DNA from: Lachnospiraceae bacterium
GTDB taxonomy: Bacteria; Bacillota; Clostridia; Lachnospirales; Lachnospiraceae
Length of the DNA: 64,000 nt
Assembly: GCA_021771755.1 (NCBI GenBank)
Contig: JAETOL010000019.1
Coordinates: forward strand, 1 to 64,000
Direction of reading: 5' to 3'
Each line of letters begins with the position of its first letter. Position 1 is the stretch's first letter. This document shows, in pieces, positions 27,289-44,487 of this stretch. The position numbers were made by a program, and so were the translations under genes. The notes under the pieces are model-generated. The model did no database searches. It saw only the letters and a program-made list of their open reading frames with translations, and had not been told where the DNA came from.

Positions 27289-28191
27289 TTATCCTTTCGC
27301 AATCCTTTTTGCTGCTTTGCCGGAAAGCCAGTTGATGATCAGCACAAAAACAAGAATCACCACTGCTGTAGCCGAAGCCTGATTCATGTGCAGTCCCTCG
27401 CTGGAGAGCACATACATATGAAGGGCAAGAGTACGTCCTGATCCCATCAGATCCGGTATCTGGGCTACTGTTCCGGAAGTGTAAAGAAGCGCAGCTGTTT
27501 CTCCGATAATACGTCCAATGGCAAGAATGATCCCGGCAAGAATACCCGGTACTGCCGAGGGAAGCACAATCGTAAAAACAGTTCTTAATTTTCCGGCTCC
27601 AAGACCAAAACTGGCCTCTCTGTAGGAATCCGGAACTGCCTTTAAGGCTTCTTCAGAAGTACGCATGATCAAAGGCAGAACCATGATCACCAGGGTAAAA
27701 ATACCTGCCATAAGCGACATTCCCCAGTTCAGTGCAGTTACAAAAAAAAGCATGCCGAACAGTCCGAATACGATAGAAGGAATACCGGAAAGTGTCTCTG
27801 CTGTGATACGGATCACCTTCACCAGCTTATTGCCTTTTTTTGCATAATCCACAAGATAAATTGCTGCAAAAATCCCGATCGGCGCCGCGATCAGAAGAGT
27901 CAACACTGTCATAATAAAGGTATTGATAAGAGACGGCATCAAAGACACATTCTCAGAATTATACTCCAGACTGAACAGGGAGGGAGTCAGGTAAGGAAGC
28001 CCCTTTGCCAGGATATAGCCTACCAGAAACAGAAGTACTGCAAAAGTAAGGACAGCCGCTGCGCCTGTCAACAGTGCAAGAATTCCGGAACCCGGATGGC
28101 GCAGATAAGATTTCAGCTGACTGCCTGCCGAAGAGCTGTTTCTTTTTTTTACAGGGATTTCTGAATTGACAGCTGCCACATTAGTTTGCAT
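27289..28191 (-). CDS. pstA: Phosphate ABC transporter permease PstA
   Basis: 300 residues with six membrane helices. It has the PstA permease pattern VIRITAETLSGIPSIVFGLF and the coupling-loop region SEEALKAVPDSYREASFGLG. It overlaps pstC by 11 bases and its GGAGGG ribosome site lies within the pstC 3' end. It forms the channel with PstC. Confidence 0.95.
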   Translation of the reverse strand: MQTNVAAVNSEIPVKKRNSSSAGSQLKSYLRHPGSGILALLTGAAAVLTFAVLLFLVGYILAKGLPYLTPSLFSLEYNSENVSLMPSLINTFIMTVLTLLIAAPIGIFAAIYLVDYAKKGNKLVKVIRITAETLSGIPSIVFGLFGMLFFVTALNWGMSLMAGIFTLVIMVLPLIMRTSEEALKAVPDSYREASFGLGAGKLRTVFTIVLPSAVPGILAGIILAIGRIIGETAALLYTSGTVAQIPDLMGSGRTLALHMYVLSSEGLHMNQASATAVVILVFVLIINWLSGKAAKRIAKG

Positions 28192-29068
28192 TTTCTGCCC
28201 TCCTGTTCAAAAGTGAAAGACTGAGATTTATAATGAGAATAAATACAAACAGTACCACGCCGGTAGCGATCAGAGCTTCTCTGTGAAGGCCTGTTGCATA
28301 TCCCATTTCTGTAACAATATTTGCTGTCATCGTACGGAGCCCTTTCAGGATTCCCTGAGGCATTCTTGCCTGGTTTCCTGCTACCATGATCACTGCCATA
28401 GTCTCGCCGATCGCACGTCCGATGCCAAGAACAACTGCAGCAAGAATACCTGATTTTGCTGCGGGAAGCATCACACAGAAAGTACTGCGTTCCTTTGTTG
28501 CCCCAAGAGCCAGAGATCCTTCATAGTAGCTTTCCGGGACACTTCTAAGAGCAGATTCCGTAGGTCCGATGATCGTAGGAAGAATCATGATCCCGAGAAG
28601 CAGAGAGGCGGCAAGCCAGCTGGTTCCTGTGCCTCCAAATGTATTTCGGATAAATGGAACCATCACTACCAGACCGAAAAATCCATATACGATAGAGGGA
28701 ACTCCTGCCATCAGTTCAATGCCTGCTTTCAACGGTCTGTAGATTTTTTTCGGACAATAACGTGCCATAAATACAGAGGTAAAGAGAGCAATTGGAACAC
28801 CTACCAGAATAGCACCTCCGGTTACATAAATGCTGGCTACGATCATGGGAAAAATCCCATACAGATGATTCGATGGTTTCCATGTGGTTCCGAAAAGGAA
28901 TTTCATTGGACCGATTTCTCCGATCGCCGGAATTCCACTGGCAAAAAGAAACAGACAGATCAAAAGCACTGCAAGGACAGAAACACAGGCTGCCACCATG
29001 AACACGGTTTTCATTCCCTGCTCTTTGATCCTGTCTATGGAGACCTTAGATGTATTTTTTATACTCAT
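28181..29068 (-). CDS. pstC: Phosphate ABC transporter permease PstC
   Basis: 295 residues, six membrane helices. The stretches AGIELMAGVPSIVYGFFGLV and SALRSVPESYYEGSLALGA are typical. ATG 29068 with GAGAGG upstream gives a normal N-terminus (SIKNTSKVSIDRIKEQ). An open extension to 29194 overlaps the intergenic hairpin and is not family-like. Confidence 0.95.
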   Translation of the reverse strand: MSIKNTSKVSIDRIKEQGMKTVFMVAACVSVLAVLLICLFLFASGIPAIGEIGPMKFLFGTTWKPSNHLYGIFPMIVASIYVTGGAILVGVPIALFTSVFMARYCPKKIYRPLKAGIELMAGVPSIVYGFFGLVVMVPFIRNTFGGTGTSWLAASLLLGIMILPTIIGPTESALRSVPESYYEGSLALGATKERSTFCVMLPAAKSGILAAVVLGIGRAIGETMAVIMVAGNQARMPQGILKGLRTMTANIVTEMGYATGLHREALIATGVVLFVFILIINLSLSLLNRRAENAN

Positions 29069-29110
29069 AAAAGATATTTTCCTCTCTGACTTCAAGATTG
29101 CAGAACAGAA

Positions 29111-29126
29111 GCCCGGTAAGCCGGGC
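29111..29126 (-). terminator. Intergenic hairpin between pstS and pstC
   Basis: A compact GC stem GCCCGG/CCGGGC with a four-base loop, followed on the minus strand by a broken T-rich stretch. Such hairpins after pstS usually allow only part of the transcripts to continue, giving more binding protein than permease and stabilising the pstS mRNA. Confidence 0.6.
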
Positions 29127-29159
29127 CCCTTTGCGTTCCATCCTGTTGTACGGATCTTA

Positions 29160-30020
29160 TTATTTTGCAAGATCCTCCCACTCAGTTGTCTCACCGGTAA
29201 AGACTGCCTTCACCTGATCGCTTGTAAGATCCTCAGTTTCGTTTGTGTTGTTTACAACCACTGCAATACCGTCTTTTGCGATTACGGTTGCTGTAAGACC
29301 AAGCTCTTTTTCCTCATCCTTCAGTTCACGGGAAGCCATTCCGATATCACAGATTCCTTCTGCCGCAGATGTTACGCCTGTTGTGGAATCACTCTGCTGA
29401 ACTTCAACAGTTACGTTCTTGTTTACTGCCTCATAAGCCTCTTTCAGTTTTTCCATTACAGGAGATACGGAAGAAGAACCTGCAACCACAACCTTGCCCT
29501 CTGCCTCTGTTGCTTCATAAGCGCCAGCCTCTGTGTCTGCTTTGATATAACCGTTGTCCTCAATGATCTGCTGTCCGTCTGCACTCATGATATAGCTTAC
29601 AAAATCCTGTGCTGCTTCACTTGCTTTCTCACCAGTTACGATATTGAACGGACGGGATACTTTATATGTATCATTTGCTACGTTCTCAGCAGTTGCCTCT
29701 GCTCCGTCGATCTTCACTGCCTTTACAGTATCGTTCAGAGAACCAAGAGAAATATAGCCAATAGCATTCTCGTCACCAGCTACGGTTGTCATCATTACGG
29801 AGGTGCTGTTTGTAATGCTTGCGTCCTCCGTTGTCATATCAACCTTTTCTCCGTCTTTCTCTTCCTGAATACCGAACAGTTCAATAAACGCGCCTCTTGT
29901 ACCGGAACCGTCCTCACGGGAAATTACATTGATCGTTCCGCTTGCTGCACTTGCCGCTGTTGCAAATGCGGTTGTTCCGATTACGGCTGCTGCTAAGATT
30001 CCAACGATTTTTTTCTTCAT
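29160..30020 (-). CDS. pstS: Phosphate-binding protein PstS
   Basis: 286 residues. A signal peptide (basic MKKK, hydrophobic core, then AFATAASAASG) ends with an A-X-A type cut site and no Cys for lipid attachment, which is unusual for a Gram-positive binding protein. The mature part carries phosphate contacts REDGSGTRGAF and GSSSVSPVMEKL. The arrangement of the two halves is swapped compared with E. coli PstS (the GSSSVSP segment is at about residue 167), a form common in Clostridia. First gene of the operon, with a Pho-box-like promoter. Confidence 0.92.
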   Translation of the reverse strand: MKKKIVGILAAAVIGTTAFATAASAASGTINVISREDGSGTRGAFIELFGIQEEKDGEKVDMTTEDASITNSTSVMMTTVAGDENAIGYISLGSLNDTVKAVKIDGAEATAENVANDTYKVSRPFNIVTGEKASEAAQDFVSYIMSADGQQIIEDNGYIKADTEAGAYEATEAEGKVVVAGSSSVSPVMEKLKEAYEAVNKNVTVEVQQSDSTTGVTSAAEGICDIGMASRELKDEEKELGLTATVIAKDGIAVVVNNTNETEDLTSDQVKAVFTGETTEWEDLAK

Positions 30021-30535: not shown

Positions 30536-32377
30536 TCATATTCCGTCCTGCTCCGCAAACACCTGCATCGCAGCCTCTTCCTCAAACTGCATATAATACA
30601 GGTCATGATAATACCCTTTTTCGGCCAGCAGCTCCTTATGGGTTCCCTGCTCGATGATCTTTCCGTCCTTTACCACCAGGATCAGATCTGCATTGCGGAT
30701 AGTGGAAAGGCGGTGCGCAATCACAAAGGAGGTATGTCCTTTCAGAAGTTTCTCTGTAGCCTTCTGGATCAGCTGCTCTGTTCCCGTATCAATAGAAGAG
30801 GTTGCCTCATCCAGTACAAAGATCGCCGGATCCGCCAGAATGGCTCGGGCAAAGGAGATCAGCTGTTTTTCCCCTGTGGAAAGTCTGCCGCCGCTTTCTC
30901 CCACATCACTGTCATAGCCTTTTTCCAGTTTATTCACCACTACATCTGCAGACACACTTCTGGTAGCCTGGACAATTTCCTCATCTGTGGCATCAAGGCG
31001 GCCATAGCGGATGTTTTCTTTTACGGTTCCACTGAACAGATGAGGATTTTGCAGTACATACCCGATCTGACTGTGAAGCCAGAGCTGAGACCGTTCCCGG
31101 TAATCCACACCGTCGATCAGGATGCGCCCGCTGGTGGGTTCAAAGAACCGCCCGGCAAGATTTACCAGCGTAGATTTTCCGGCTCCGGTTTCTCCTACAA
31201 TGGCAATGTTCATTCCAGCCGGAACATGAAGATTGAAATGCTCCAGCACATACTCCTTTCCGTCCGGATATCGGAAAGAAACATCTTCAAATACAATATC
31301 GCCCCTGATCTTTTCCCAGTTTTCTTTTTTGGGCCGAAAGTTATCTCCGTATTTTTCCTGCACTTCCCTGCTGTCCACTACATTTGGCTTTTGGCTTAAA
31401 AGATCCATAACACGCTCAATATTCGCCTGACAGGAGATCAGGTCTGCAAGAAGCCTTGCCAGCTGCTGGATCGGTTCAAAAATAACCACCGCATAGGAAA
31501 TGAATACCGACAGCGTTCCCAGCTGGATCAGATCCTTTTGTACCATGTAACCGCCTTTGGAAAGAATCAGTGCAGAAGCTACGGAACTGAAAAAAAGAAT
31601 GGTTGGAATAAAGATCGCATTCAGCTTCGCAGCTCTGCATCCGGCATACCTCATATCTTCTGTGATCTTAAAGAAAGCCTGTTCATTCTCTTTCTCAATA
31701 ACCATGCTTTTGGAGGTTTTTACTCCTGTGATCCCTTCATTATAGGCATTGGTGATCTGCGAGTTGATCTTACGGACCTTTCGGTTCCAGTGAAGGATCC
31801 GGTTCTGAAAGAACACAGTCAGCACAGCAATACAGGGCACGATCAGAAGAAGCAGAAAGGCCAGACGGGCATTCAGAAAGAACATGATGCCAAACACGCC
31901 AACCACATAGATCAGAGCCCAGAACATGTCCACCAGCCCCCAGGCGATCATTCCTGCAATACGCAGGGTATCGCTCATCACACGGGCATGGATATATCCC
32001 ACCGGAGTGGTATTATAGTAAGAAAAGGATAAGGTCTGCAGATGCTTGAACTGCGCCCATTTCAGATCCTTTCCGATATTCATTTCAATCGTTGTAGCTG
32101 CATGAACAGACAGATACACACTGATCGTCTGAGCCACGATCACCGCCACGTATGCCAGAGCAAAAACATGGATCCCTTTCAGGGAATCCGGAATGATAAA
32201 ATGATCGATAGCATAGCTCTGGAACAGAGGAACCAGAACGTCCACTCCCGCCAGAAGAATGTTCAGACTGAAGGTAATAAAAAAATATTTTTTATACGGT
32301 TTAAAGTAGGGCAGCATCTTTGCCCAGATCTTAAACTGAAAAGGTTTCGTGTACTCCTGTTCTTCATACGCTGCCAT
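30536..32377 (-). CDS. Heterodimeric ABC exporter, half with canonical catalytic Glu
   Basis: 613 residues: six membrane helices (about 30-310) and an ATPase domain. Walker A is GETGAGKST, Walker B IFVLDEATSSID with the catalytic Glu, and the switch His is in VIAHRLST. The signature is LSTGEKQ instead of LSGGQ, which places this motif in the degenerate site of the pair. Family: type IV ABC exporters of the BmrCD/LmrCD/TM287-288 kind, exporting drugs, lipids or peptides. It overlaps the partner gene by 14 bases. Confidence 0.92.
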   Translation of the reverse strand: MAAYEEQEYTKPFQFKIWAKMLPYFKPYKKYFFITFSLNILLAGVDVLVPLFQSYAIDHFIIPDSLKGIHVFALAYVAVIVAQTISVYLSVHAATTIEMNIGKDLKWAQFKHLQTLSFSYYNTTPVGYIHARVMSDTLRIAGMIAWGLVDMFWALIYVVGVFGIMFFLNARLAFLLLLIVPCIAVLTVFFQNRILHWNRKVRKINSQITNAYNEGITGVKTSKSMVIEKENEQAFFKITEDMRYAGCRAAKLNAIFIPTILFFSSVASALILSKGGYMVQKDLIQLGTLSVFISYAVVIFEPIQQLARLLADLISCQANIERVMDLLSQKPNVVDSREVQEKYGDNFRPKKENWEKIRGDIVFEDVSFRYPDGKEYVLEHFNLHVPAGMNIAIVGETGAGKSTLVNLAGRFFEPTSGRILIDGVDYRERSQLWLHSQIGYVLQNPHLFSGTVKENIRYGRLDATDEEIVQATRSVSADVVVNKLEKGYDSDVGESGGRLSTGEKQLISFARAILADPAIFVLDEATSSIDTGTEQLIQKATEKLLKGHTSFVIAHRLSTIRNADLILVVKDGKIIEQGTHKELLAEKGYYHDLYYMQFEEEAAMQVFAEQDGI

Positions 32378-34178
32378 AGCTTCTCACCTCTTTTCTGTCG
32401 TCATGACTCATCTGTATTTCATAGATCTGCCGGTAAATCCCGTTTTTCTCTATCAGCTCCTGATGAGTTCCCATTTCTTCTGTCTTGCCCTGATTCAGTA
32501 CCAGAATCTGAGAAGCCCCCATAAGCGTTGTGATACGGTGAGAGATCAGGATCACCGTTGTATCCTTCATACATTCCTTCAAAGCCTGCCGGATCTTGTG
32601 ATCCGTCTCGGAGTCTACAGCGGAAAGGGAATCATCAAACACCATGATCGGCGCTTTCTGAAGAAGCATCCGTGCAATGGCGACACGCTGCCTCTGCCCT
32701 CCGGAAAGAGTCACGCCCCTTTCACCGACCAGAGTTTCGTATCCGTCCGGGAAGTTCATGATCGCATCATCCACACAGGCGATCCGGGCTGCTTCACGGA
32801 TTTCCTCCATCGTTGCCTCCGGTCTGGAAGCAGCAATATTTTCCCGGATCGTCCTGGAATAAAGAAATGGTTCCTGAAGCACCATACCAATATTACGGCG
32901 CAATTGTTCCAGCGGAATCTCACGGATATCCTTTCCTCCGATGGTGATGGCACTTTTCTGATCTTTCAGAGAATAAAACCTTTCCAGAAGCTGTACAATC
33001 GTAGATTTTCCACTTCCTGTACCTCCCAGAATTCCAAAAGTGGCTCCCTGAGGAATATGAAAAGATACGTCATCCAGTACCTTTTTGACGTCTTCATACT
33101 GAAAATCCACATGGCTGAAAGAAATATCATAAGTTTTCCACAGTTTCCCGCCACTGTCCACATCCTTCGCGGCCGCTTCAGAAGAAGCTTCTTTCCGATA
33201 CCCCTCTTCCCGGCTGCCCAGTATGTAATCTACACGGTCAAAGGACACACCCGCCTTACTCATATCAGATAAGATCCTGCCCAGTCCACGGATCGGCCAT
33301 ACCAGAGCAGTATTATAGGAAGCAAACGCCACAAATTCTCCTACGGAAATATTTCCATGTACTGCCTCCACAGCTCCCAGTACAATGATCGTAACAACCT
33401 GAAGACCCGTGATCAGATCTCCCACGCCCCAGTAAAGACCGGAAAGAGTTCCCAGACGGATCCATAAATTTGCAAAAGCATTATTCTTCTCCAGAAAACG
33501 GTCCATCTCATATTTTTCCCGGCCAAAGGCACGAACAACCCGGACGCCGGTAGCATTTTCCTGTACCACCGTGGACAATTCTCCCTCCGCCTCGTCTGCA
33601 TCCGTAAAACGCTTTGCGATCAGCCTGTAAAAAACAGCCGAATACACCACTACCAGAGGCACAAATAAAAGGACGATCATGGAAAGCTTCACATTCATGG
33701 CAACCATCATCCCAAAGGAAACTGCCACCAGAAAAATCGTACGGAACACTTCCAGAAGCTGTGTGACCACAAAATTCCGAATCACTTCCACATCAGAAGT
33801 ACAGCGCTGGATAATATCTCCTGTCTGGTTTTTGTCATGCCAGCTCATAGGAAGTTTCTGTACATGCGCAAACAGCGTATCTCTCATATTTTTGGCAAAG
33901 TTCTCCCCTGCTCTGGCGGTATAATATCTGCTGACAAACATAGCCGCTCCGGACAGAAGCGCCACTGTCGTCAGGATCAGTGCCATCACCCACAGATGCT
34001 CTGACAAATACGGATATTTACTGCCGCCCAGCACCGAATCGATGGTAAACCGGAATATCTGAGGTGTCAGAGAATTTAGTATGGTAGTAATAAAAGAGGC
34101 AGCCGCCGCTGCCGCAAAAGCACCTCTGGCTCCCGCAAAAAAGCGGGAGATCAGTTGTAATCGTCTTTGTTTCTTCAT
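32364..34178 (-). CDS. Heterodimeric ABC exporter, half with degenerate Walker B
   Basis: 604 residues: six membrane helices and an ATPase domain. Walker A GGTGSGKST and signature LSGGQRQRVAIARML are normal. Walker B reads IMVFDDSLSAVD, with Asp in place of the catalytic Glu, as in TM287. Together with the partner's LSTGEKQ this predicts one active and one inactive ATP site. It has its own promoter after the terminator of the neighbouring ligase operon. Co-transcribed with the partner half and the DUF2007-like gene. Confidence 0.92.
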   Translation of the reverse strand: MKKQRRLQLISRFFAGARGAFAAAAAASFITTILNSLTPQIFRFTIDSVLGGSKYPYLSEHLWVMALILTTVALLSGAAMFVSRYYTARAGENFAKNMRDTLFAHVQKLPMSWHDKNQTGDIIQRCTSDVEVIRNFVVTQLLEVFRTIFLVAVSFGMMVAMNVKLSMIVLLFVPLVVVYSAVFYRLIAKRFTDADEAEGELSTVVQENATGVRVVRAFGREKYEMDRFLEKNNAFANLWIRLGTLSGLYWGVGDLITGLQVVTIIVLGAVEAVHGNISVGEFVAFASYNTALVWPIRGLGRILSDMSKAGVSFDRVDYILGSREEGYRKEASSEAAAKDVDSGGKLWKTYDISFSHVDFQYEDVKKVLDDVSFHIPQGATFGILGGTGSGKSTIVQLLERFYSLKDQKSAITIGGKDIREIPLEQLRRNIGMVLQEPFLYSRTIRENIAASRPEATMEEIREAARIACVDDAIMNFPDGYETLVGERGVTLSGGQRQRVAIARMLLQKAPIMVFDDSLSAVDSETDHKIRQALKECMKDTTVILISHRITTLMGASQILVLNQGKTEEMGTHQELIEKNGIYRQIYEIQMSHDDRKEVRSYGSV

Positions 34179-34259: not shown

Positions 34260-34289
34260 AAAAATCCCCGGAAACGCTTCGTTCCGGGG
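34260..34289 (-). terminator. Intrinsic terminator of the carrier-protein operon
   Basis: Perfect 8-bp stem CCCCGGAA/TTCCGGGG with an eight-base loop, followed on the minus strand by ATTTTTG. It separates the AMP-ligase operon from the exporter operon. Confidence 0.85.
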
Positions 34290-34297
34290 AAATATTT

Positions 34298-35806
34298 TTA
34301 ATATCTTTTTATTTTTTTGGAAGGTGTTTTTTCAAATTCTGTATCTCTGACCTTAAGACTGTAAACTCTTTTATGAGCAGGCGCCGTTTTGTTATAAGCA
34401 TCCACCACTTCCTGCAGCACAGTCTGGATCTCTGTGATTTCTTTTTTCTTTGCGTACTCATAATCCGGGAAGATCTCCGCCTCGATAACACCGTTCTTTT
34501 CTCTTACCAGGATTTCCTGCACCAGACGATGTTCGCCGATTTTATTTTCCAGTTCCTCCGGGGAAACATTCTCACCATTTTTAGTAATGATCAGGTTTTT
34601 CTTTCTTCCGGTCAGATACACAAATCTCTCTTCGTCCACATAGCCCAGATCTCCGGTGCGAAGCCATCCGTCCTCCGTAAGCGCTTCGGCAGTCTCTTCC
34701 GGCATCTTATAATAGCCTTTCATCACACTGCTTCCCCTTACCCAAAGTTCCTTATCTACGGTCTTTGCTTCACAGTTGGGGAGAAGCTGCCCTACAGACT
34801 CTTTGCGGATATTCCATGGAACAGTTGTGCTGATGACCGGAGCACATTCTGTCATTCCATATCCCTGAAGGATCGTGATGCCATAACGCCGGAACAGATC
34901 GATATAAGCAGGATTCAGATATGCGCCGCCACTGCAGATGGTATGGAAGTTCTCTCCAAATACCTCCTTTTTCACAATCTCAGGAGGCAGTCCTGCGGCA
35001 TCTTCCAGTTTCTTTGCCATAGTCTCGATCATCAGCGGCACCATCAGAATCATATTTGGCTGGAACAGCTTAATGTTCTTTGCCACACGAAGAAGTGAAT
35101 CATTGATGCAGATGATCGCTCCCAGTGTCATTCCCTTAAGAATATCCATGGTCAGGCAATAGGCATGATGAACCGGAAGTACAGACAAGACGACTGTACG
35201 TTTCGGAAGCTTCATGTCAAGGCAGGTGGCATTTTCTGCCAGATTCCTGTGGGTAAGCATAACGCCCTTGCTTTTTCCTGTTGTTCCGGAAGTAAACATA
35301 ATGGTACAGAGATCCTCCGGAGAAGGGCTGATCTTGCAGGCATCCTCTGCTTCTTCCATCAGCCTCCGGAAGGAAAGCGCCTCTTCATCCGATTCCTCTT
35401 TCTGCATGGAAATCAGATATTTCAGTTTTGGGCACCGCTCCTTCACAATGGCTGCAACATCTCTGCGGATCTCATCCACAACAAAAACGGATGCGTCTGC
35501 CCGGTGGATCAGTTCGCACATCTCCTCCGCAGGAAGAGATACGTCCAGAGGAACTGCCACACTTGCGCTGTTGACGGTTCCCAGATAAGCTGTCAGCCAG
35601 GTATAGGAAGTCATTCCTGCGATCGCTACATGATTTCCCTGTTCTCCCAGCTTTTCCAGCACACAGGAAAAACGTTCACTGTCTCTTTTTAATTCTGCAT
35701 AAGATTTTGATGCAATTTCTTTTTTTCCGGTTTTATATCGAACCGCATCTCCGTCTCCAAATTCCTCTGCCGCCTGAATGACGATCTCACGTATGGTCTC
35801 TGCCAT
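34298..35806 (-). CDS. AMP-forming acyl-CoA/acyl-ACP ligase
   Basis: 502 residues of the ANL superfamily. The P-loop-like motif is IMFTSGTTGKSKGVMLTH, the A5 region QGYGMTECAP, the A7 region LRTGDLGYVDEE and the A10 Lys is in TPSKKIKRY. It should activate a carboxylic acid to an acyl-AMP and load a thiol. The gene follows the acyl carrier protein by 28 bases, so the carrier encoded there is the probable acceptor. Length fits a fatty or aryl acid ligase rather than an NRPS adenylation domain. Last gene of the TetR-controlled operon. Confidence 0.9.
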   Translation of the reverse strand: MAETIREIVIQAAEEFGDGDAVRYKTGKKEIASKSYAELKRDSERFSCVLEKLGEQGNHVAIAGMTSYTWLTAYLGTVNSASVAVPLDVSLPAEEMCELIHRADASVFVVDEIRRDVAAIVKERCPKLKYLISMQKEESDEEALSFRRLMEEAEDACKISPSPEDLCTIMFTSGTTGKSKGVMLTHRNLAENATCLDMKLPKRTVVLSVLPVHHAYCLTMDILKGMTLGAIICINDSLLRVAKNIKLFQPNMILMVPLMIETMAKKLEDAAGLPPEIVKKEVFGENFHTICSGGAYLNPAYIDLFRRYGITILQGYGMTECAPVISTTVPWNIRKESVGQLLPNCEAKTVDKELWVRGSSVMKGYYKMPEETAEALTEDGWLRTGDLGYVDEERFVYLTGRKKNLIITKNGENVSPEELENKIGEHRLVQEILVREKNGVIEAEIFPDYEYAKKKEITEIQTVLQEVVDAYNKTAPAHKRVYSLKVRDTEFEKTPSKKIKRY

Positions 35807-35834
35807 TTTTTCACCTTTTCCTTCCTTCTTTTTC

Positions 35835-36062
35835 TTATTCAGATAAGCGCTCCATGTATGAGGCAGCTTCTCCTACTGTTCGGATGTCTGCTGCTTCCTG
35901 CTGATCGATCTCAATGTCAAACTCATCCTCCAGATCTCCCAGCATACTCATAAAATCAAACGAGGTAAATCCCAGATCTTCCATGAATCTGGATTCCGGT
36001 GTAACATTCTCCGGCTCCGCCTCCACATAATTACAGATTATTTCTACCAGCTTCTCAAACAT
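35835..36062 (-). CDS. Discrete acyl carrier protein
   Basis: 75 residues, one four-helix carrier domain. The phosphopantetheine Ser is in EDLGFTSFDFMSMLGDLEDE, where the usual DSL motif reads TSF. The sequence is acidic, as expected. AAGGAG precedes the ATG. It is a dedicated carrier beside an AMP ligase and a condensation-type protein and not near any fatty-acid synthesis genes, so it probably serves this pathway alone. Confidence 0.9.
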   Translation of the reverse strand: MFEKLVEIICNYVEAEPENVTPESRFMEDLGFTSFDFMSMLGDLEDEFDIEIDQQEAADIRTVGEAASYMERLSE

Positions 36063-36148
36063 ATTTCTTCTCCTTATATATTCTTTGTTTTGCTTCTGTC
36101 TGCCGCTTCCTTTGCTCTTTTATCCCGGCAGCCAGGTATTTTACCCTC

Positions 36149-37552
36149 TTAGATGAGCTTAATAATATCTCCTATTGGAAGGTTTGGATTTTCTGTTCCC
36201 TTAAACATGATCTTACAGAGATAATAATATAAATACTCCAGCTTTTCTCTGGATACAACCTTGATCTGGTGCTCAAAATTAAAGTCCAGACCATTGTCCT
36301 CCGGACGGTGCATTACGGTCAGATACATGGCCTGGGTAGTTGCGCCGTTTGGATACCATTTGGTCCTGTATTTAATATCCCCCAGCTTTTCCAGACCTTT
36401 TTCTCTCAAGGTCATTGGCTGATAGGTAAGTGCCATTGGCTCATACGTATGTCCCTTTCTGGTCGCATACCTGCGGCTTCTCTCTGCAAAATAGGAAACC
36501 GGATCATAGTTTGCATGACGGAACATTTCATTCTGGCGGTCGCGGATCTCATAGATTCCTTCCAGAAAGGTTTTGTCCTGAGAGATCACAGTACGGAACG
36601 GGAAAGAGTGGATCCTGGTTCCTCCTGATTTTTTCTCCTTCAGTGTCGCACGGCGGGCAATGGCTGTATTAATGGAAACATCATCATTGCCGTTTTCTTT
36701 CTGAAAGTAAGTGCGAAGTCCCATAAGAAGAAGACATGCCAGAGAAACATGGTACTTTTCGCAGAAATCCATCAGTCGTTTTGTCGGCTCTTCCTCCAGA
36801 TGGAAGATATCCAGTTCAGAATCTACAGAATCCGATACGTCTACCACTGCCCGCTCTTCCGGATTTTGATAGCGATCACGAACTTCATCCAGAAGTCTGG
36901 TTCCGTCAATGCCATTAAAGATCGGCTCTGACTCTGCAATAAGATTTTTGAAAAATTCCTCATCACGCTGCTTCGCTCTGCATCCGGCTTCATAAGCAAG
37001 ATCTTTTTTCAGCTGCTCAATATAGGAAGCCATTTCCTTCGGCGGTTCCACACCCTCATACTGGGTGCTGCAGTACAGTTCGATGATGTCTTTCATAAAA
37101 CAGATCAGGGACTGGGCATCCATAGTCATATGGTCTGCCAGAAAATAAATTCCGTTATAGCCTTCCGGCATTTTGATCATCACAATACGGTTCATAGGAG
37201 AATCATCCCGTTTAAAAGGAACAGCCGTCCAGGCTCTCATGGTTTTTTCCGCCTCTTCCATGGTTCCCTGAGAAAAGTCCACAAATTCAATATCCCGTTC
37301 TTCTTTCTCCACTACATACTGATAATAAGTGCCTTCTTTATCGTGTGCAAAACGAAGCCGCATGGACTCACATCGTTCATAGGCTTTATAAATACACTGC
37401 TTCAGAAGTTCAAAATCCAGTTCCACCTCGATGGTCAGGCTTGTTCCTATATTCAGAACCTCTTTTTTCGGACAGAAGCTCTGATAAAACAAATGAAATT
37501 TCTGAGCTGCTGTCAGCGGGTAAACAGGGTATCCTTTTCTTGTTCTCATCAT
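36149..37552 (-). CDS. Stand-alone condensation-type acyltransferase
   Basis: 467 residues, the size of one condensation domain of the NRPS/PapA/wax-ester synthase superfamily. The active-site HxxxD motif is seen in FLADHMTMDAQSL near residue 132. The start YPLTAAQKFHLFYQSF resembles the C1 motif. SINTAIARRATLKEKKSGGTR resembles the solvent-channel region. It would join an acyl group held on the carrier protein to an amine or alcohol. It overlaps the hydrolase gene by four bases (ATGA), so the two proteins are made together. Acceptor unknown. Confidence 0.82.
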   Translation of the reverse strand: MMRTRKGYPVYPLTAAQKFHLFYQSFCPKKEVLNIGTSLTIEVELDFELLKQCIYKAYERCESMRLRFAHDKEGTYYQYVVEKEERDIEFVDFSQGTMEEAEKTMRAWTAVPFKRDDSPMNRIVMIKMPEGYNGIYFLADHMTMDAQSLICFMKDIIELYCSTQYEGVEPPKEMASYIEQLKKDLAYEAGCRAKQRDEEFFKNLIAESEPIFNGIDGTRLLDEVRDRYQNPEERAVVDVSDSVDSELDIFHLEEEPTKRLMDFCEKYHVSLACLLLMGLRTYFQKENGNDDVSINTAIARRATLKEKKSGGTRIHSFPFRTVISQDKTFLEGIYEIRDRQNEMFRHANYDPVSYFAERSRRYATRKGHTYEPMALTYQPMTLREKGLEKLGDIKYRTKWYPNGATTQAMYLTVMHRPEDNGLDFNFEHQIKVVSREKLEYLYYYLCKIMFKGTENPNLPIGDIIKLI

Positions 37553-38502
37553 TTGACAATACCTCCGATAAATGTATCCAAAGCCTTCTCATAGGCTTCC
37601 ATGTCTTTATAATAGCTTTCTGCATGGGCTGCACCCGAAATGATCAGCCTTGTGGCAGGAACTGTACAGTTTTCATAAATTTTTTCACACATGCCTGCCG
37701 GCACAAACGTATCCGCATCCCCATGGATCAGAAGAAGCGGAACCTTCGCCTTCTGTACTTCCCGTGCTGCGTTACATTCGTCCAGACCATAACCAGCCTT
37801 CTTTTTGTTGATCCGGTCTGATATCTGGATCATAGGAAACGCCGGAAGATGATACATGGAATGGAGCACATGGGTAAAAACTTCCTTCGGCGAAGTAAAT
37901 GCACAATCCGAAATGATCCCTTTTACCTGATCCGGAAGCGCTTCCAGGCTGCCCGTCATCAGCACAGTAGAACCTCCCATGGAATTTCCATGGAGAAGAA
38001 TCTGTACCTGCGGTCCGCACTGCTCTATGACCCAGTTGATCCAGCCCAGCGCATCATAGCGGTCCAGACATCCAAATCCTATATAGGTTCCCTCACTTTT
38101 TCCATGTGCCCGGGCATCCGGAAGAAGCATTCCATAGCCTTTTTTCATATAATAATCTGAAAGTCCGATGTAATCGCTCATCCCCTCGCTGGTATAACCA
38201 TGAAAGCAGATCACGACCTTAGAGCGATCCGGTCCTGGAAAATATGTGGCATGGAGCCGCAGTCCATCCTTTGTTTCCTGATATACATCTTCATGAGGCT
38301 GCGCCAGCATATATGCTTTTCTTTCCTGGATCAACGGCATGTACTGATTCCAGTCTGTACCTGCCATCTTTACCGTTCTCTCTTTTTTTGCATTGCTTCT
38401 CTTCATGGTTCTGCGGTAAAAATATGCCGCGCTTCCCATTTCAGAAATCGTCAGCAGTCCAAGAAGCGCTGCTGCTCCACTTATCCATTTTTTCATGCCC
38501 AT
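37549..38502 (-). CDS. Membrane-anchored alpha/beta hydrolase
   Basis: 317 residues. One N-terminal hydrophobic helix (about 8-27) is followed by an alpha/beta hydrolase. It has VICFHGYTSEG, the nucleophile elbow LLHGNSMGGSTVL, Asp in IHGDADTFVP and His in SGAAHAESYYKD. This group resembles BEM46/Fes-type thioesterase-like hydrolases. In the operon it could release or trim an acyl product at the membrane, like a discrete thioesterase. GAGG precedes the start; a second ATG two codons later is equally possible. Confidence 0.83.
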   Translation of the reverse strand: MGMKKWISGAAALLGLLTISEMGSAAYFYRRTMKRSNAKKERTVKMAGTDWNQYMPLIQERKAYMLAQPHEDVYQETKDGLRLHATYFPGPDRSKVVICFHGYTSEGMSDYIGLSDYYMKKGYGMLLPDARAHGKSEGTYIGFGCLDRYDALGWINWVIEQCGPQVQILLHGNSMGGSTVLMTGSLEALPDQVKGIISDCAFTSPKEVFTHVLHSMYHLPAFPMIQISDRINKKKAGYGLDECNAAREVQKAKVPLLLIHGDADTFVPAGMCEKIYENCTVPATRLIISGAAHAESYYKDMEAYEKALDTFIGGIVK

Positions 38503-38515
38503 AACCTCTGCCGCT

Positions 38516-38845
38516 TTACTTTTTGCTGTCGATCAGTTCTTTCAGTTTCAGGGCTTTGTCAAAATTTCCTTCCACCTTCATTTTCTGCATGGTAAATGCC
38601 ATAACCGGATCCAGCTTCTTCTCTGCGATCTTCATAAACGTCTCAGCCGATGCTGTAAACATGGCGTCCCTGTCAAAATACTCATAAGGTTCCACATAAA
38701 GTTTCCCCTCTTTTACTTCCACATAAAAAATGCCTTCTGCTTCGCCAACAATATTGAACTGATAAGCCAGATGTTCTGCAATATTGCTCACATCCGCCTC
38801 CATAAATTTCCCTTTAATCTGCGCAAAAAAATCCGCATATGTCAT
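38516..38845 (-). CDS. SCP2 sterol-carrier-type lipid-binding protein
   Basis: 109 residues. The SCP2 pattern is AYQFNIVGEAEGIFYVEVKE, then LYVEPYEYFDRDAMFTASAE and MKIAEKKLDPVMAFTMQKMKVEGNF cut into strands and helices. Such proteins bind hydrophobic acyl chains in a pocket. The ATG at 38845 has GGGAGG nine bases upstream. First gene of the TetR-controlled operon; its promoter is flanked by two palindromic operators. Probably handles the lipid substrate or product. Confidence 0.87.
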   Translation of the reverse strand: MTYADFFAQIKGKFMEADVSNIAEHLAYQFNIVGEAEGIFYVEVKEGKLYVEPYEYFDRDAMFTASAETFMKIAEKKLDPVMAFTMQKMKVEGNFDKALKLKELIDSKK

Positions 38846-38869
38846 AACAAACATCCTCCCTTTTGTTTT

Positions 38870-38927
38870 TCGACCGTCAGTCGAATTTGTTTATATTTAA
38901 TTTATCATCTTTTCGACCATCGGTCAA
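38870..38927 (-). promoter_or_regulatory. Twin TetR-type operators and promoter of the SCP2-ligase operon
   Basis: Two related palindromes: TCGACCGTCAGTCGA at 38870-38884 and TCGACCATCGGTCAA at 38913-38927. On the minus strand the second covers a -35 TTGACC, with TAAATT as a likely -10 17 bases on. The first lies just downstream of the start point. Both would be blocked by a bound repressor. The neighbouring divergent TetR gene is the obvious candidate. Confidence 0.72.
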
Positions 38928-38986
38928 TGTTGCTTTTCCCCAAATTTTTTGAACAGGAATCTGTTTTTTCTGTCCAGATTTTATAA

Positions 38987-39016
38987 TTGGAACTATGGTA
39001 TCATGTGTGGTATACT
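38987..39016 (+). promoter_or_regulatory. Promoter of the TetR gene
   Basis: TTGGAA, 18-base spacer, TATACT, about 56 bases before the ATG. It lies outside the two palindromes, so the regulator may be made continuously while its target operon is repressed. Confidence 0.6.
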
Positions 39017-39071
39017 TAGGATTACAGTTATTGAAAATCCGTTATTTTAAATCAAAGGAGACGGATGACAT

Positions 39072-39686
39072 ATGCCATCTTCAGAAAAGTACAACAGAAT
39101 CCTGGATGCCTTCCAGGAATTATTAGACAAAAAAAATATACAGACTATCTCCGTAAGCGAGATTGCTCAGACTGCCGGAATCGGCAAAGGAAGTATTTAT
39201 TATTATTTCCCCTCCAAGGATGCTATTCTGGAGGCTCTGGTCGAACGTAATTATGAGAAACCGCTGAAAACTGCCAAGCAGCTGGCCACCCAGACGGAAA
39301 TCTCTCCCTTTACCAGAATGGCCATGATCTTTCAGGCCTGCCGGAATTCCAGAGAAGAATTCCAGAAACAGGATTCTGGCGGAAAAGCAGAAAGCGCCCA
39401 GGCAGAAACCTTTCTCCACCACCAGTATCTGAAACATCTGATCAGCGAGCTGAAACCCACGTTGACCCAGATCATCCAGCAGGGGATTGACAGCGGCGAG
39501 ATCCACTTTGACTATCCCGCCGCCCTGGCTGAAATCGTACTGATCGTGCTGTCCATCAAACTGGACAACACCCTGGTGCCTTCCACTCCCAAGGAAATCG
39601 GGGAAACCATCCGGGGGCTGATCGTACTGTTGGAAAAAGGTACGGAAAATCCCGTGGGATCCCTGAATTTTTTAAACGCTTTATAA
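39072..39686 (+). CDS. TetR/AcrR family transcriptional regulator
   Basis: 204 residues. The helix-turn-helix is IQTISVSEIAQTAGIGKGSI followed by YYYFPSKDAILEALVE. The ligand domain (60-204) has no recognisable specificity. It is divergent from the SCP2-ligase operon with two palindromes in between, so it probably represses that operon and is released by a small hydrophobic ligand, perhaps the pathway product or substrate. GGAG lies upstream of the ATG. Confidence 0.9.
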   Translation: MPSSEKYNRILDAFQELLDKKNIQTISVSEIAQTAGIGKGSIYYYFPSKDAILEALVERNYEKPLKTAKQLATQTEISPFTRMAMIFQACRNSREEFQKQDSGGKAESAQAETFLHHQYLKHLISELKPTLTQIIQQGIDSGEIHFDYPAALAEIVLIVLSIKLDNTLVPSTPKEIGETIRGLIVLLEKGTENPVGSLNFLNAL

Positions 39687-40779: not shown

Positions 40780-42261
40780 CTATTGTCGGATGTCCACCAG
40801 CCCGACTTCTTTTACCGTATCGGTAAATTCCCAGCAGGCGCCTTCACCGGAAAGGTTGAGAAACGCCTTAGAAAGATCCGGCTCGTTTATGATCCATGCC
40901 ATGTCCGCCTTAAGCTCTTCTCCCGGCTTCAGAACAGGGATATAATTCCCGCCGTTTCCATAGTCGTCATGAATACTGTAGTAAGTCATATCTGTACTGG
41001 AGGCAACACCATCTCCTGTTGCAAAATCGTATTCCACACCGTCTTTCTGAAAATTTTCAGCTTCAACATCCCTGACCGAATACATTCCATCCTTTTTATC
41101 AATCAGCATCAGACATCCATGATACAGCATATGATAAACAGGTGTTTCCGTTGGATTTTTGTAGGTGACCGTCACAAAAAGCAGCTTCTGGTTCAGTGTT
41201 TCTGTCTTTACCACCTGATCCAGAGTTTCCACGCCGTCTCCTCTTTTTATATAAGACAGGTGATTTGCCACAAGCTTTCCATCACTTCCCACTGCTTCCT
41301 TCCATCCATCCGGAAGCTCTATACCATCCAGAAGACTGAGATTGTCAGAAATCTGCACAGCATCTACTCGCATCTGAATCTTATCCAGTTCCAGATATTC
41401 TCCGTTTTCTGTCTCGCCTGTTACCCTCTGTTCCAGCCATTCCCCCGGCTTTACCACAGAAAGGTCTTTTTCAGATATGGAAGTTTCTAACGGCTCCGAC
41501 TCTTCTATTTGCGGCGAAACATACTCACTCCAGGAATACAGGTTTTCTGTTTCCTCCATTTCACCTGTTTTCACCAGAGAAAGATTTTCTGCAAATTTTA
41601 CCGCATCTTCTTTTGTCACATCATCCCCGATATTCATGATGACTACCTGATATTCCTCCGGGCACAGAAGACAGATCATCTGATTAAAAGTTTTATCCTG
41701 CTCCAGATCCTGAAATCTCAAATAAATTCCCTCTCTGGTGCCAAAAGTTCTTTTCTCACTTTCTATTACTCCTGTTTTCGTAAGAATCTGATCCGTGTCA
41801 TCACTGTCCAGAAGTACCGTTCCTATGGAAATCCCTCCCTGATTCGGTGTTTCCGAGTAAAAAAGCCTTGTTTTTCCAGAAGCATCATCTGCCCCCTCCA
41901 TCCCTTCCGGAATATACCCGGGCTGAATCTTCACCTGTGGGATCTCATGGGGAACGATAAGGGAAGCTGTTCCCTTTTCCATAGTTATCCCCGCGGAAAT
42001 TCCATATTTCCCCTGTTTTTCCACATACATAGTGTATAACTGGTAGCCTGCATAAGCCACTGTGGAAAATCCCAGAACACACAGGGCTGCCACAGCAGCT
42101 ACACGAACAGGGCCCCACTTTCTGCGTCTTCTCTGTGACTCTTTTATATGGACTGCCGTATTATTTTCTTCTCCAAGCTGATTTTCCACTTCTTCCAGAA
42201 TCATTCTGTGAATAAAATCAGGTGTTTCCGGCAGTTCCTTTTTGATTTCTTCCAGTCTCAT
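40780..42261 (-). CDS. Anti-sigma-like membrane protein with DUF4367-like region
   Basis: 493 residues. A soluble N-terminus of about 60 residues with basic clusters, one membrane helix (VRVAAVAALCVLGFSTVAYA) and a large extracellular part. The first part is DUF4367-like (PGYIPEGMEGADDASGKT, then SEKRTFGTREGIYLRFQDL). The second (about 330-480) is a beta-rich DUF4352-like domain. The ATG overlaps the stop of the sigma factor gene, and the longer upstream frame lies over that gene and is not real. It probably holds the sigma factor at the membrane until a surface signal arrives. Confidence 0.82.
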   Translation of the reverse strand: MRLEEIKKELPETPDFIHRMILEEVENQLGEENNTAVHIKESQRRRRKWGPVRVAAVAALCVLGFSTVAYAGYQLYTMYVEKQGKYGISAGITMEKGTASLIVPHEIPQVKIQPGYIPEGMEGADDASGKTRLFYSETPNQGGISIGTVLLDSDDTDQILTKTGVIESEKRTFGTREGIYLRFQDLEQDKTFNQMICLLCPEEYQVVIMNIGDDVTKEDAVKFAENLSLVKTGEMEETENLYSWSEYVSPQIEESEPLETSISEKDLSVVKPGEWLEQRVTGETENGEYLELDKIQMRVDAVQISDNLSLLDGIELPDGWKEAVGSDGKLVANHLSYIKRGDGVETLDQVVKTETLNQKLLFVTVTYKNPTETPVYHMLYHGCLMLIDKKDGMYSVRDVEAENFQKDGVEYDFATGDGVASSTDMTYYSIHDDYGNGGNYIPVLKPGEELKADMAWIINEPDLSKAFLNLSGEGACWEFTDTVKEVGLVDIRQ

Positions 42262-42743
42262 ATGGGTACCTCCATTTGCGTAAGTCTGTCTCTCAACTGC
42301 ATCCTGGCCCGAAAAAGCCGCTTCTGTACCGCCCCTTCTGTAATCTCCAGAATTTGTGCGATCTCCCTGATGCTGAAATCTTCTCCGTAATACAGGATCA
42401 CCGGGATCCGAAGCTCCTCTTTTAAGGATCTCACTGCCGAATAAAGATCGCTGTAATCCTTTTTCTCCTCTGCTTCCCCAATGGAAAGCTCCCTCATTTC
42501 CTCCATGGAAACATAGCGGCTTTCCCGGCGAAGCAGACTGTAACATTCATTGATCAATATCCGCATCAGCCAGGTTTTTGCATACTTATCCTGTCGTAAA
42601 GTATCTATCTTCTGAAATGCCTTTACAATCGCTTCCTGAATCGCGTCTCCACAGTCCTGATCATTACGAAGAATGGTCTTTGCAGTAAGGTACATTTGGC
42701 GTTCTGATTCTAAGATCAGCCTGCCAAGATTTTCTTTTGTCAA
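42258..42743 (-). CDS. ECF-type RNA polymerase sigma factor
   Basis: 161 residues. Region 2 (DCGDAIQEAIVKAFQKIDTL, then TWLMRILINECYSLLRR) and region 4 (YYGEDFSIREIAQILEITEG, AVQKRLFRARMQLRDRL) are complete. The start is TTG with AAAGGAG seven bases upstream. Translationally coupled to the anti-sigma-like gene that follows (ATGA). Homologous to the sigma factor 1.2 kb upstream, so the two pairs look like a duplication. Confidence 0.92.
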   Translation of the reverse strand: MTKENLGRLILESERQMYLTAKTILRNDQDCGDAIQEAIVKAFQKIDTLRQDKYAKTWLMRILINECYSLLRRESRYVSMEEMRELSIGEAEEKKDYSDLYSAVRSLKEELRIPVILYYGEDFSIREIAQILEITEGAVQKRLFRARMQLRDRLTQMEVPI

Positions 42744-42850
42744 TTCTTTACTCCTTTCCTTACCGGCCGGTAATGTGTTTCTGTATATTAGACGCTGTTG
42801 ATTCAGAAATATCCCCTGATTTTCAAACAGAAGTACCCGTTTTTCTGTTT

Positions 42851-43957
42851 TTATTTTACTGTTAGCCAGGAATCTACGTTTCCAAAATGTACTGCTTCCA
42901 GTCTTTCCACGTCGATCGCCTGTGCAAAGCCTCCTGAAATTTTCACTGTTTTATTTTCTTCATCCCAGCTTTCTCCGCCGCCGCCAATACCGCCGCCGAA
43001 TTCATAGTCCATTTTTACCACCGTGCCGTCTTCATAGCGAACCTGATCTATATGTGTTCTTCCGGTAAGATCCATGCCGGGATCATCTCCATTATATTCA
43101 AACCGGTTTCTTTCATCCTCATACACCTTCATGGCTTCCTCATAATCCAGATAAAGCGTATATTGTAAAGGAGAAATTTCCATGGCTTCCACCGTAATCT
43201 CATATCCTCCAAAATCACATTTCCTGTTTACATCCAGTTTCGTCATGGACCGGATCTCATCCAGTGTCCATTCAAATTTCCAGACACCTTCCGCCACTAC
43301 TTCTCCATCCTCTGTCTTATCTCCACCCTGAGTCAGGTTCTTCAGTTCCATCTGAACAGTTTTGCCGCTGAGGTCATAATCATTACTATAAGAAAAAGAG
43401 ACTTCATAATACTGTAAGTGGGGAGAAATATCTGGTATTCCCTCAGGATATGCCAGACCTGCTCCTGCCCCACTACTTCCCAGTTCGTCCATATCGTATG
43501 TGGAGGTTCCGTCAATTTTAATATTCAGACCATCCTCAAAGGATGTAGTATAATCCATAGAAATACTGTCATCTGTTTCTATTTTAAAAAGTGCATACAA
43601 AAGCTTCTGATCCTGTACTGTGTTTACCAGAGTGATCGTTACGCCGTTCTGTGTCTGGGACTGACCGATTCCTTTAATATAGCCCTGATCTGCCAGAGAT
43701 TCCTGCTGTTCTTTTGACGGGTTCAGCCTTTTCTTTAATACATCATTCCACTGAAACAGTTCCCCTGCCACAATCGTAGTGACTGCAAGACTGCATAATA
43801 TAGCCGCTGCAATCAATATCCGTATCATCATTTTGGGGCTTTTCTTTTTATGATGAATGATTTTCTGCCTTTCAATCTGTTTTAATGTTTCCTCAAATTT
43901 CATATGAAATTCTTCCGGCACTTCCGGTGCCGCGTTTTTCCAGTTATGATCTGACAT
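42851..43957 (-). CDS. DUF4179 anti-sigma-like membrane protein
   Basis: 368 residues. The soluble N-terminus (about 45 residues, EEFHMKFEETLKQIERQK) probably binds the sigma factor. One membrane helix follows (MMIRILIAAAILCSLAVTTI), and a long extracellular DUF4179 region starts GELFQWNDVLKKRLNPSKEQ. It follows its sigma gene by 14 bases with GGAGGAG before the ATG. Same design as the other pair but the extracellular domain differs, so the signals probably differ. Confidence 0.85.
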   Translation of the reverse strand: MSDHNWKNAAPEVPEEFHMKFEETLKQIERQKIIHHKKKSPKMMIRILIAAAILCSLAVTTIVAGELFQWNDVLKKRLNPSKEQQESLADQGYIKGIGQSQTQNGVTITLVNTVQDQKLLYALFKIETDDSISMDYTTSFEDGLNIKIDGTSTYDMDELGSSGAGAGLAYPEGIPDISPHLQYYEVSFSYSNDYDLSGKTVQMELKNLTQGGDKTEDGEVVAEGVWKFEWTLDEIRSMTKLDVNRKCDFGGYEITVEAMEISPLQYTLYLDYEEAMKVYEDERNRFEYNGDDPGMDLTGRTHIDQVRYEDGTVVKMDYEFGGGIGGGGESWDEENKTVKISGGFAQAIDVERLEAVHFGNVDSWLTVK

Positions 43958-43971
43958 AATTTCTCCTCCTT

Positions 43972-44487
43972 CTACCGTAACTGCATCTTAGCTCCTGTCG
44001 CTTTTACTGGCAAATAGCTTCCCTCTTCTGTAAGCTGTTCCTTCAAAAGAGCTCTTGCCCGTGAAAGCCTGCTTTTGATGGTTCCTTCCTGCATGTGCAG
44101 GATTTCTGCAATCTCCTTTTGAGAAAAACCTTCTATATAATACAATGTCACCAGAATCCTCAGTTCTTCTGGCAGATTCAGGATCGCCATATATAAGTGC
44201 GTATATTTTTTAGGTTCTGATGCACCTGCATTTTCCATATATTCCTCATAAGAAATTACACATTTTCTTTTTCGCAGGACCCCATTACATTCGTTGATCA
44301 GTATCCGCGTGATCCAGGTTCGGAAAAACTGATCCTGTTTCAAAGTATGCAGTTTTTCATAAGCTTTCAGAAGCGTTTCCTGTACTGCATCTGCACAGTC
44401 TGAATCATTTTTCAAAATCGACTTTGCCACATGGTACAGCATGGATTCTGACTGCCGTATCTCTCTGATAAATACATCTCTTGTCAT
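43972..44487 (-). CDS. ECF-type RNA polymerase sigma factor
   Basis: 171 residues. Region 2 (DCADAVQETLLKAYEKLHTL, then TWITRILINECNGVLRKRK) and region 4 (YYIEGFSQKEIAEILHMQEG, TIKSRLSRARALLKEQL) are clear. GGAG precedes the ATG. First gene of a four-gene sigma/anti-sigma run. Its leader shares the palindrome CCGGCCGG with that of the second sigma gene, at about the same distance from the ribosome site. Confidence 0.92.
   Translation of the reverse strand: MTRDVFIREIRQSESMLYHVAKSILKNDSDCADAVQETLLKAYEKLHTLKQDQFFRTWITRILINECNGVLRKRKCVISYEEYMENAGASEPKKYTHLYMAILNLPEELRILVTLYYIEGFSQKEIAEILHMQEGTIKSRLSRARALLKEQLTEEGSYLPVKATGAKMQLR

Follow-up and report, generated by a model that had tools for sequence, protein, structure and literature searches.

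The three core genes of the operon described here, which encode a condensation protein (C), an acyl carrier protein (ACP) and an AMP ligase (A), are on sequence grounds a CTA fatty acid amide (FAA) operon of the published kind, and the larger arrangement to which they belong, which we term class 1, probably makes fatty acid amides under local repression by a TetR-family regulator. The operon lies in a 64,000-nucleotide stretch of DNA from a Lachnospiraceae bacterium, hereafter the window (table 1). As originally predicted, the five minus-strand reading frames are present and run into a stem followed by Ts, although terminator-like sites are generally over-represented in the region (21 found vs 9.2 in shuffles), and the hydrolase and condensation genes overlap by ATGA. 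Pfam matches agree with one stand-alone domain per product (AMP ligase, ACP, Condensation, alpha/beta hydrolase and SCP2, together with TetR), residues 141-145 of the condensation protein read HMTMD, and both palindromes sit between the SCP2 gene and the divergent tetR.

Table 1. Coordinates of the operon, its putative control sites and neighboring sigma-factor-like genes in the window.
Feature	Position	Strand	Basis or remark
Intrinsic terminator at operon end	34265..34290	-	Stem of 9 pairs (6 GC) with a T tail on each strand
A: stand-alone acyl-AMP ligase (ANL), 502 aa	34298..35806	-	PF00501 AMP-binding, 1.5e-65
T: stand-alone ACP, 75 aa	35835..36062	-	PF00550 PP-binding, 2.1e-11
C: free-standing condensation protein of the FAA type, 467 aa	36149..37552	-	PF00668 Condensation, 6.7e-40
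ATGA overlap, hydrolase stop and condensation start	37549..37552	-	ORF coordinates and sequence
Alpha/beta hydrolase, 317 aa	37549..38502	-	Pfam Hydrolase_4, 5.1e-15
SCP2-domain lipid-binding protein, 112 aa	38516..38854	-	PF02036, 7.1e-15
Proposed operator O2	38869..38885 (palindrome 38870-38884)		Just downstream of operon -10
Proposed operon promoter, TTGACC-17-TAAATT, TG before second hexamer	38899..38927	-	Promoter-pattern search
Proposed operator O1	38912..38928 (palindrome 38913-38927)		Overlaps operon -35; starts 43 bp from O2
Proposed tetR promoter, TTGGAA-18-TATACT, TG before second hexamer	38987..39016	+	Clear of O1 and O2
Divergent TetR-family regulator (putative repressor), 204 aa	39072..39686	+	PF00440 TetR_N, 3e-13
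Sigma-factor-like gene with membrane-segment protein, pair 1	42258-42743 with 40780-42546
Sigma-factor-like gene with membrane-segment protein, pair 2	43972-44487 with 42851-43957

A search of solved structures matched the window condensation protein over its full length to PDB 12KH (E 2.2e-109), the next solved chain being an NRPS (E 2e-8). PMC13142362 identifies 12KH as the Coprococcus eutactus enzyme OaaC, which is free-standing and condenses fatty acids carried on an ACP with small amines. The same paper gives (D/H)HxxxD as the motif of FAA condensation domains, the next residue being Ser in 42%, Ala in 36% or Gly in 17%. The window protein reads D140-H141-MTM-D145-A146 and so falls within that definition. 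A 2026 preprint names the three core genes, in the order C-ACP-A, the CTA operon, and places it in 36 species, every one of them Lachnospiraceae (PMC13060934). Its criterion is a match to catalogued C and A proteins with 70% identity over 80%. The full-length match to OaaC, the CTA gene order and the D-H-MTM-D-A motif are thus the reasons for which we regard the core as a known kind of system, and the original statement that this gene set was not known as a described system fails for the core. The scheme proposed with it, in which the ligase loads an acid on the ACP and the condensation protein joins the acid to an amine, agrees with the published FAA pathway and with the conservation seen in relatives (below); among the three products it had left open, an N-acyl amide is now favored over a lipid ester or a lipopeptide. 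In 2021, Chang et al. reportedly described this type of operon, the CTA fatty acid amide operon, from gut Clostridia (Nat Microbiol).

The window operon and the CTA operon of gut Clostridia share free-standing C, ACP and A genes in a single operon (in the window with ACP between C and A), a Lachnospiraceae host, and the same condensation family and motif type; the window adds SCP2, the hydrolase and a divergent TetR with two proposed operators. The comparison with the OaaC/OaaACP/OaaA system of C. eutactus, whose product is oleoyl aminovaleric acid, shows full-length homology, a common DHxxxD motif and a condensation domain that in both cases lacks an acceptor carrier protein. However, OaaC is 40% identical to the window protein, reads DS where the window reads DA, and groups with a second class of loci (class 2, below) with no SCP2 detected and mostly another TetR-type gene, oaaC itself being known from the protein and not from its neighborhood. 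Free-standing FAA systems are credited to Chang and colleagues, and the published tree places FAA domains nearest to NRPS starter condensation domains (PMC13142362). With the latter the window protein shares the use of an acyl donor, but it is a single-domain protein of 467 residues and does not belong to a canonical NRPS: a search of its 3.7-Mb genome at E up to 0.001 gave no other PF00668 match, and therefore no multidomain NRPS assembly line was found. The wax ester synthase and PapA Pfam models gave no match, Condensation being the only hit at E up to 0.01. One gene of the PPTase family (182 aa, PF01648) lies elsewhere in the genome.

What is new, provisionally, are the accessory genes of class 1, that is SCP2, the hydrolase and the divergent TetR. 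A literature search on FAA, and on SCP2, TetR and FAA together, did not find this set described, and the main texts of PMC13142362 and PMC13060934 mention neither TetR, hydrolase nor SCP, nor any transcriptional control of CTA operons; the novelty is provisional because Chang et al. could show more.

Loci with related condensation proteins were drawn from genome scans and from a collection of named genomes, in the latter from the best 80 of 534 relatives, all of them at least 73% identical to the query. After removal of 10 duplicates, 152 of the 160 loci yielded 142 distinct condensation proteins; the other eight (L085, L138, L151, L161, L165, L170, L240, L241) had no usable condensation gene and were left out (five carry all six genes, L240 carries five, and L170 and L085 only C-ACP-ligase). 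Identity to the window protein separates class 1 (at least 54%, n = 103), three intermediates (45-51%) and class 2 (33-44%, n = 31), while 5 of the 142 proteins (21-26%) were kept outside the classes. Among the 103 distinct class-1 loci, C, ACP and ligase genes stand together in 101, which denotes linkage and not necessity since the loci were found through C; a hydrolase match is present in all 103, SCP2 in 87 and a divergent tetR in 85. Contig ends explain part of this shortfall. In the 76 loci with at least 3.3 kb of upstream and 2.2 kb of downstream sequence, all six genes are found in 62, with only tetR absent from five, only SCP2 from five and both from four. The co-occurrence check suggested with the original prediction therefore finds the genes mostly together. 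Nevertheless, class-1 loci lacking SCP2 despite ample upstream sequence (e.g., L067, L130, L139, L168) or lacking the divergent tetR (e.g., L068, L109, L232, L235, L245) do exist, and so both genes are dispensable. In two genomes of the same genus as the window (G031 and G051; loci L027, L028 and L031) only N-terminal pieces of C were seen, covering residues 1-116 or 1-87; these class-1 fragments possibly reflect gene decay or contig limits.

The class-2 loci have a different composition. C, ACP and ligase are together in 27 of the 31, the other four showing C alone of these, and a same-strand hydrolase match occurs in 11. SCP2 was detected in 0 of 31 with search models trained on class 1, by which a remote SCP2 could be missed. 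Of the 23 class-2 loci that reach 13 kb or more, 18 contain a TetR-type gene from a different lineage (PF14278), located a median 2.9 kb downstream of C and, in 16 of the 18, on the opposite strand (L218:5090-5656 and 17 other loci). The three intermediates (L074, L075, L076), which come from another family of the order, are arranged as tetR-hydrolase-C-ACP-ligase without SCP2 and have Ser after the catalytic Asp. Overall, matches are patchy, occurring in 29 of 64 genomes of the same genus and 59 of 392 in the order, figures in which weak matches to ordinary NRPS are counted; with OaaC as query 72 of 397 genomes in the family match, with the same weak matches included.

Both catalytic positions of HxxxD, His141 and Asp145, are invariant (139/139), and the loss in orthologs that would have spoken against a joint pathway was not seen. 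The following residue differs between the classes: position 146 is Ala in all 104 class-1 proteins (window included) and Ser in 31 of 32 class-2 proteins (OaaC included), as in the three intermediates. In total, 23 near-fixed positions of C distinguish class 1 from class 2, two of them being gaps in class 2. Given these positions, the post-Asp residue among them, and the 40% identity to OaaC, the acceptor of class 1 may differ. We know of no class-1 enzyme that has been assayed. A quick tree places OaaC among the class-2 proteins (support 98 and 100) and leaves L227, a member of the same identity band, outside them; class 1, the OaaC class and the intermediate group are joined, apart from three NRPS domains, with the long-branch L227 also inside. 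These three are domains other than starter domains; long-branch warnings concern L098, L227 and L218, and one join was flagged as well, in which the window and 44 further rows meet L220 and two others.

Ligase motifs TSGTTGxSKG and YGMTE are at least 97% conserved (97 class-1 sequences, window included), and the ligase scores highest with fatty-acid-CoA ligase-like models. The ACP is close to models of the fatty-acid-synthase type (66.3 against one subfamily cut-off of 66); its S34 is at least 97% conserved (103 sequences, window included) and, by position, is likely the phosphopantetheine site. In the hydrolase, S174, D264 and H293 are invariant in 29 of 29 aligned sequences and fit a catalytic triad, and at the N-terminus a hydrophobic helix precedes basic residues, a pattern suggestive of a membrane anchor that faces the cytoplasm. 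The predicted fold (pLDDT 87) is nearest to esterase Pf2001 and then to a monoacylglycerol lipase, further neighbors being monoacylglycerol lipases and feruloyl or cinnamoyl esterases; the sequence match to a monoacylglycerol lipase is weak (1.3e-9), and the fold resembles many esterases. The SCP2 protein is a member of its family (PF02036, 55.6 bits vs a cut-off of 21.3), with solved SCP2 domains matching from 2.5e-7.

We compared the gap between tetR and the operon in 86 cases (the window, 82 class-1 loci and the three intermediates). The six-mers GGTCAA and GGTCGA occur in 84 and 75 of the 86 gaps, against 11.5 and 6.8 in shuffles. The 15-bp palindrome TYGACCNNNGGTCRA, with up to two mismatches, is found in 85 of 86 gaps (163 sites vs 1.9 in shuffles), the motif having been derived from the same gaps in which it was counted; L142, without an operator match, is the sole exception. 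In the window alone the palindromes are unremarkable (two found vs 1.7 expected at one mismatch), and it is their conservation in relatives, not their frequency there, that makes them notable. Exactly two copies are present in 74 gaps, one in nine and three in two. Neighboring copies (78 spacings) lie 44 bp apart in 50 cases and 43 bp in 18, the three intermediates having spacings of only 22-24 bp. An extended -10 (TGnTA...T), with each base conserved at about 78-88% in 68 two-operator gaps, falls between the two sites, separated by 17 bp from the preceding TTGACC, which belongs to the first site; therefore the first operator would cover the -35, and the start region would lie under the second. 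On the tetR strand, an extended -10 of its own (TGnTATAnT) is found in 78 of 86 gaps vs 2.2 in shuffles. The search that gave the proposed operon promoter found 23 promoter-like sites in 11 kb, against 17 expected.

The exact pattern TYGACYNNNRGTCRA occurs in the 3.7-Mb window genome only at the two operator places, while a reversed-pattern control gave six sites per strand; as far as exact sites are concerned, a wider TetR regulon is thus ruled out. Since the operators are conserved in the gaps and have no further exact copies in the genome, the plain reading is that TetR would act as a local repressor of the FAA operon. The TetR control suggested originally agrees with the conserved tetR and operators, as a prediction from sequence. 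Regarding the ligand, TetR falls outside the FadR NCBIfam equivalog (42.3 bits, cut-off 200) and scores 42.9 bits with the BetI (choline) model, far under its cut-off. An alignment of 29 TetR sequences and an AlphaFold model of the window TetR (pLDDT 81) were made; in the fold comparison with the model, SaFadR with lauroyl-CoA ranks second within a broad TetR mix at nearly equal scores, and a putative fatty acid regulator of Clostridium perfringens ranks ninth. These fold neighbors lend weak support to an acyl ligand, the SaFadR rank being weak evidence because many TetR proteins score alike.

Past the operon terminator lie two ABC genes (30536-34178), which the original prediction treated as a separate exporter unit. 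That separation stands, given their position and a partnership that is not conserved: matches near the operons of relatives are weak (24-34%) and found at 6 of 40 loci, which rules out the exporter as a conserved partner. At one of the six, the class-2 locus L090, a possible exporter pair is on the other strand. Among 56 long class-1 loci the recurring neighbors include a MATE-like protein (8) and another ABC ATPase (6), and the exporter is absent from the 12 most frequent neighbor clusters. Beyond the exporter, the reading frames at 28181-30020 are presumably parts of a phosphate ABC transporter (PstC-like and PstS-like). On the other side of the operon, two sigma-factor-like genes, each followed by a membrane-segment protein, occupy 40780-44487 and are what we take to be a duplicated ECF sigma/anti-sigma pair.

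Taken with the published biochemistry, these data lead us to the following scheme. The ligase would adenylate a free fatty acid and load it on the phosphopantetheinylated ACP, from which the condensation protein would pass the acyl chain to a small, freely diffusing amine and release an N-acyl amide, a reaction demonstrated for the homolog OaaC (PMC13142362) and here extended to the window enzyme. The membrane-anchored hydrolase probably frees the fatty acid from an acyl ester, or else edits acyl-ACP, and SCP2 may carry the hydrophobic substrate or product. Judging from the conserved sites, one TetR dimer on O1 would occlude the -35 and a second on O2, 43-44 bp away, the start region. An acyl ligand, either a fatty acid or an acyl-CoA, is our best guess from context for what releases TetR, so that the presence of toxic free fatty acids would switch conjugation on. 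The 2026 preprint reports that some amines ease fatty-acid toxicity and that acyl amines are raised in CTA-positive Blautia (PMC13060934). We tentatively put forward, at somewhat less than even confidence, that class 1 could be a fatty-acid-inducible detoxification unit in which the hydrolase frees fatty acids from lipids of the host or the diet, SCP2 carries them, the CTA proteins conjugate them to amines and a dedicated TetR, acting through two operators, turns the whole unit on as free fatty acid rises.

The identity of the inducer is where a different view is easiest to entertain. With the same enzymes, TetR could sense an amine or the finished amide, and the operon would then answer to amine supply. 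The ligand is not readable from the sequence here, and the almost equal BetI and FadR scores, both far under cut-off, would suit such a sensor; however, the pathway is tied to fatty acid toxicity in print (PMC13060934) and SaFadR with lauroyl-CoA stands second among solved folds, though weakly given how many TetR proteins resemble it. We consider amine or amide sensing rather unlikely.

The chemistry itself could also be read otherwise. Class 1 might use another acceptor, an alcohol or an amino-lipid, and produce membrane lipid esters or acylated lipids with SCP2 as their carrier, as the constant Ala after the catalytic Asp (104/104), the 23 class-specific positions, and the excess over class 2 of SCP2 (87/103 vs 0/31) and hydrolase (103/103 vs 11/31) would suggest. 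Yet Ala is already FAA-type, since it makes up 36% of the published FAA set beside Ser and Gly (PMC13142362), and Condensation is the sole Pfam model matched at E up to 0.01, and we regard this alternative as improbable. Still harder to sustain is fatty acid salvage, in which ligase and ACP would recycle exogenous fatty acids with the condensation protein as a minor or editing partner. The best ligase scores, with fatty-acid-CoA ligase-like models, the proximity of the ACP to the fatty-acid-synthase type and the likeness of the hydrolase to esterases and monoacylglycerol lipases all fit such a role, but the condensation protein is a constant element, with invariant His and Asp, beside ACP and ligase in 101 of 103 loci (again linkage, not necessity), and we deem salvage very unlikely.

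We thus return to fatty acid amide synthesis under local TetR repression as the preferred reading. The residue after the catalytic Asp, Ala or Ser, combined with gene content offers a simple sorting of CTA operons into two classes, which may differ in acceptor and control, and the conserved tetR, the pair of proposed operators and the intervening promoter provide a putative switch open to direct test. CTA-made FAA are reported to be active on human GPCRs (PMC13142362) and to act on GLP-1 release (PMC13060934, the 2026 preprint). If the proposed detoxification unit is real, the gut supply of such host-active acyl amides would follow dietary fat.
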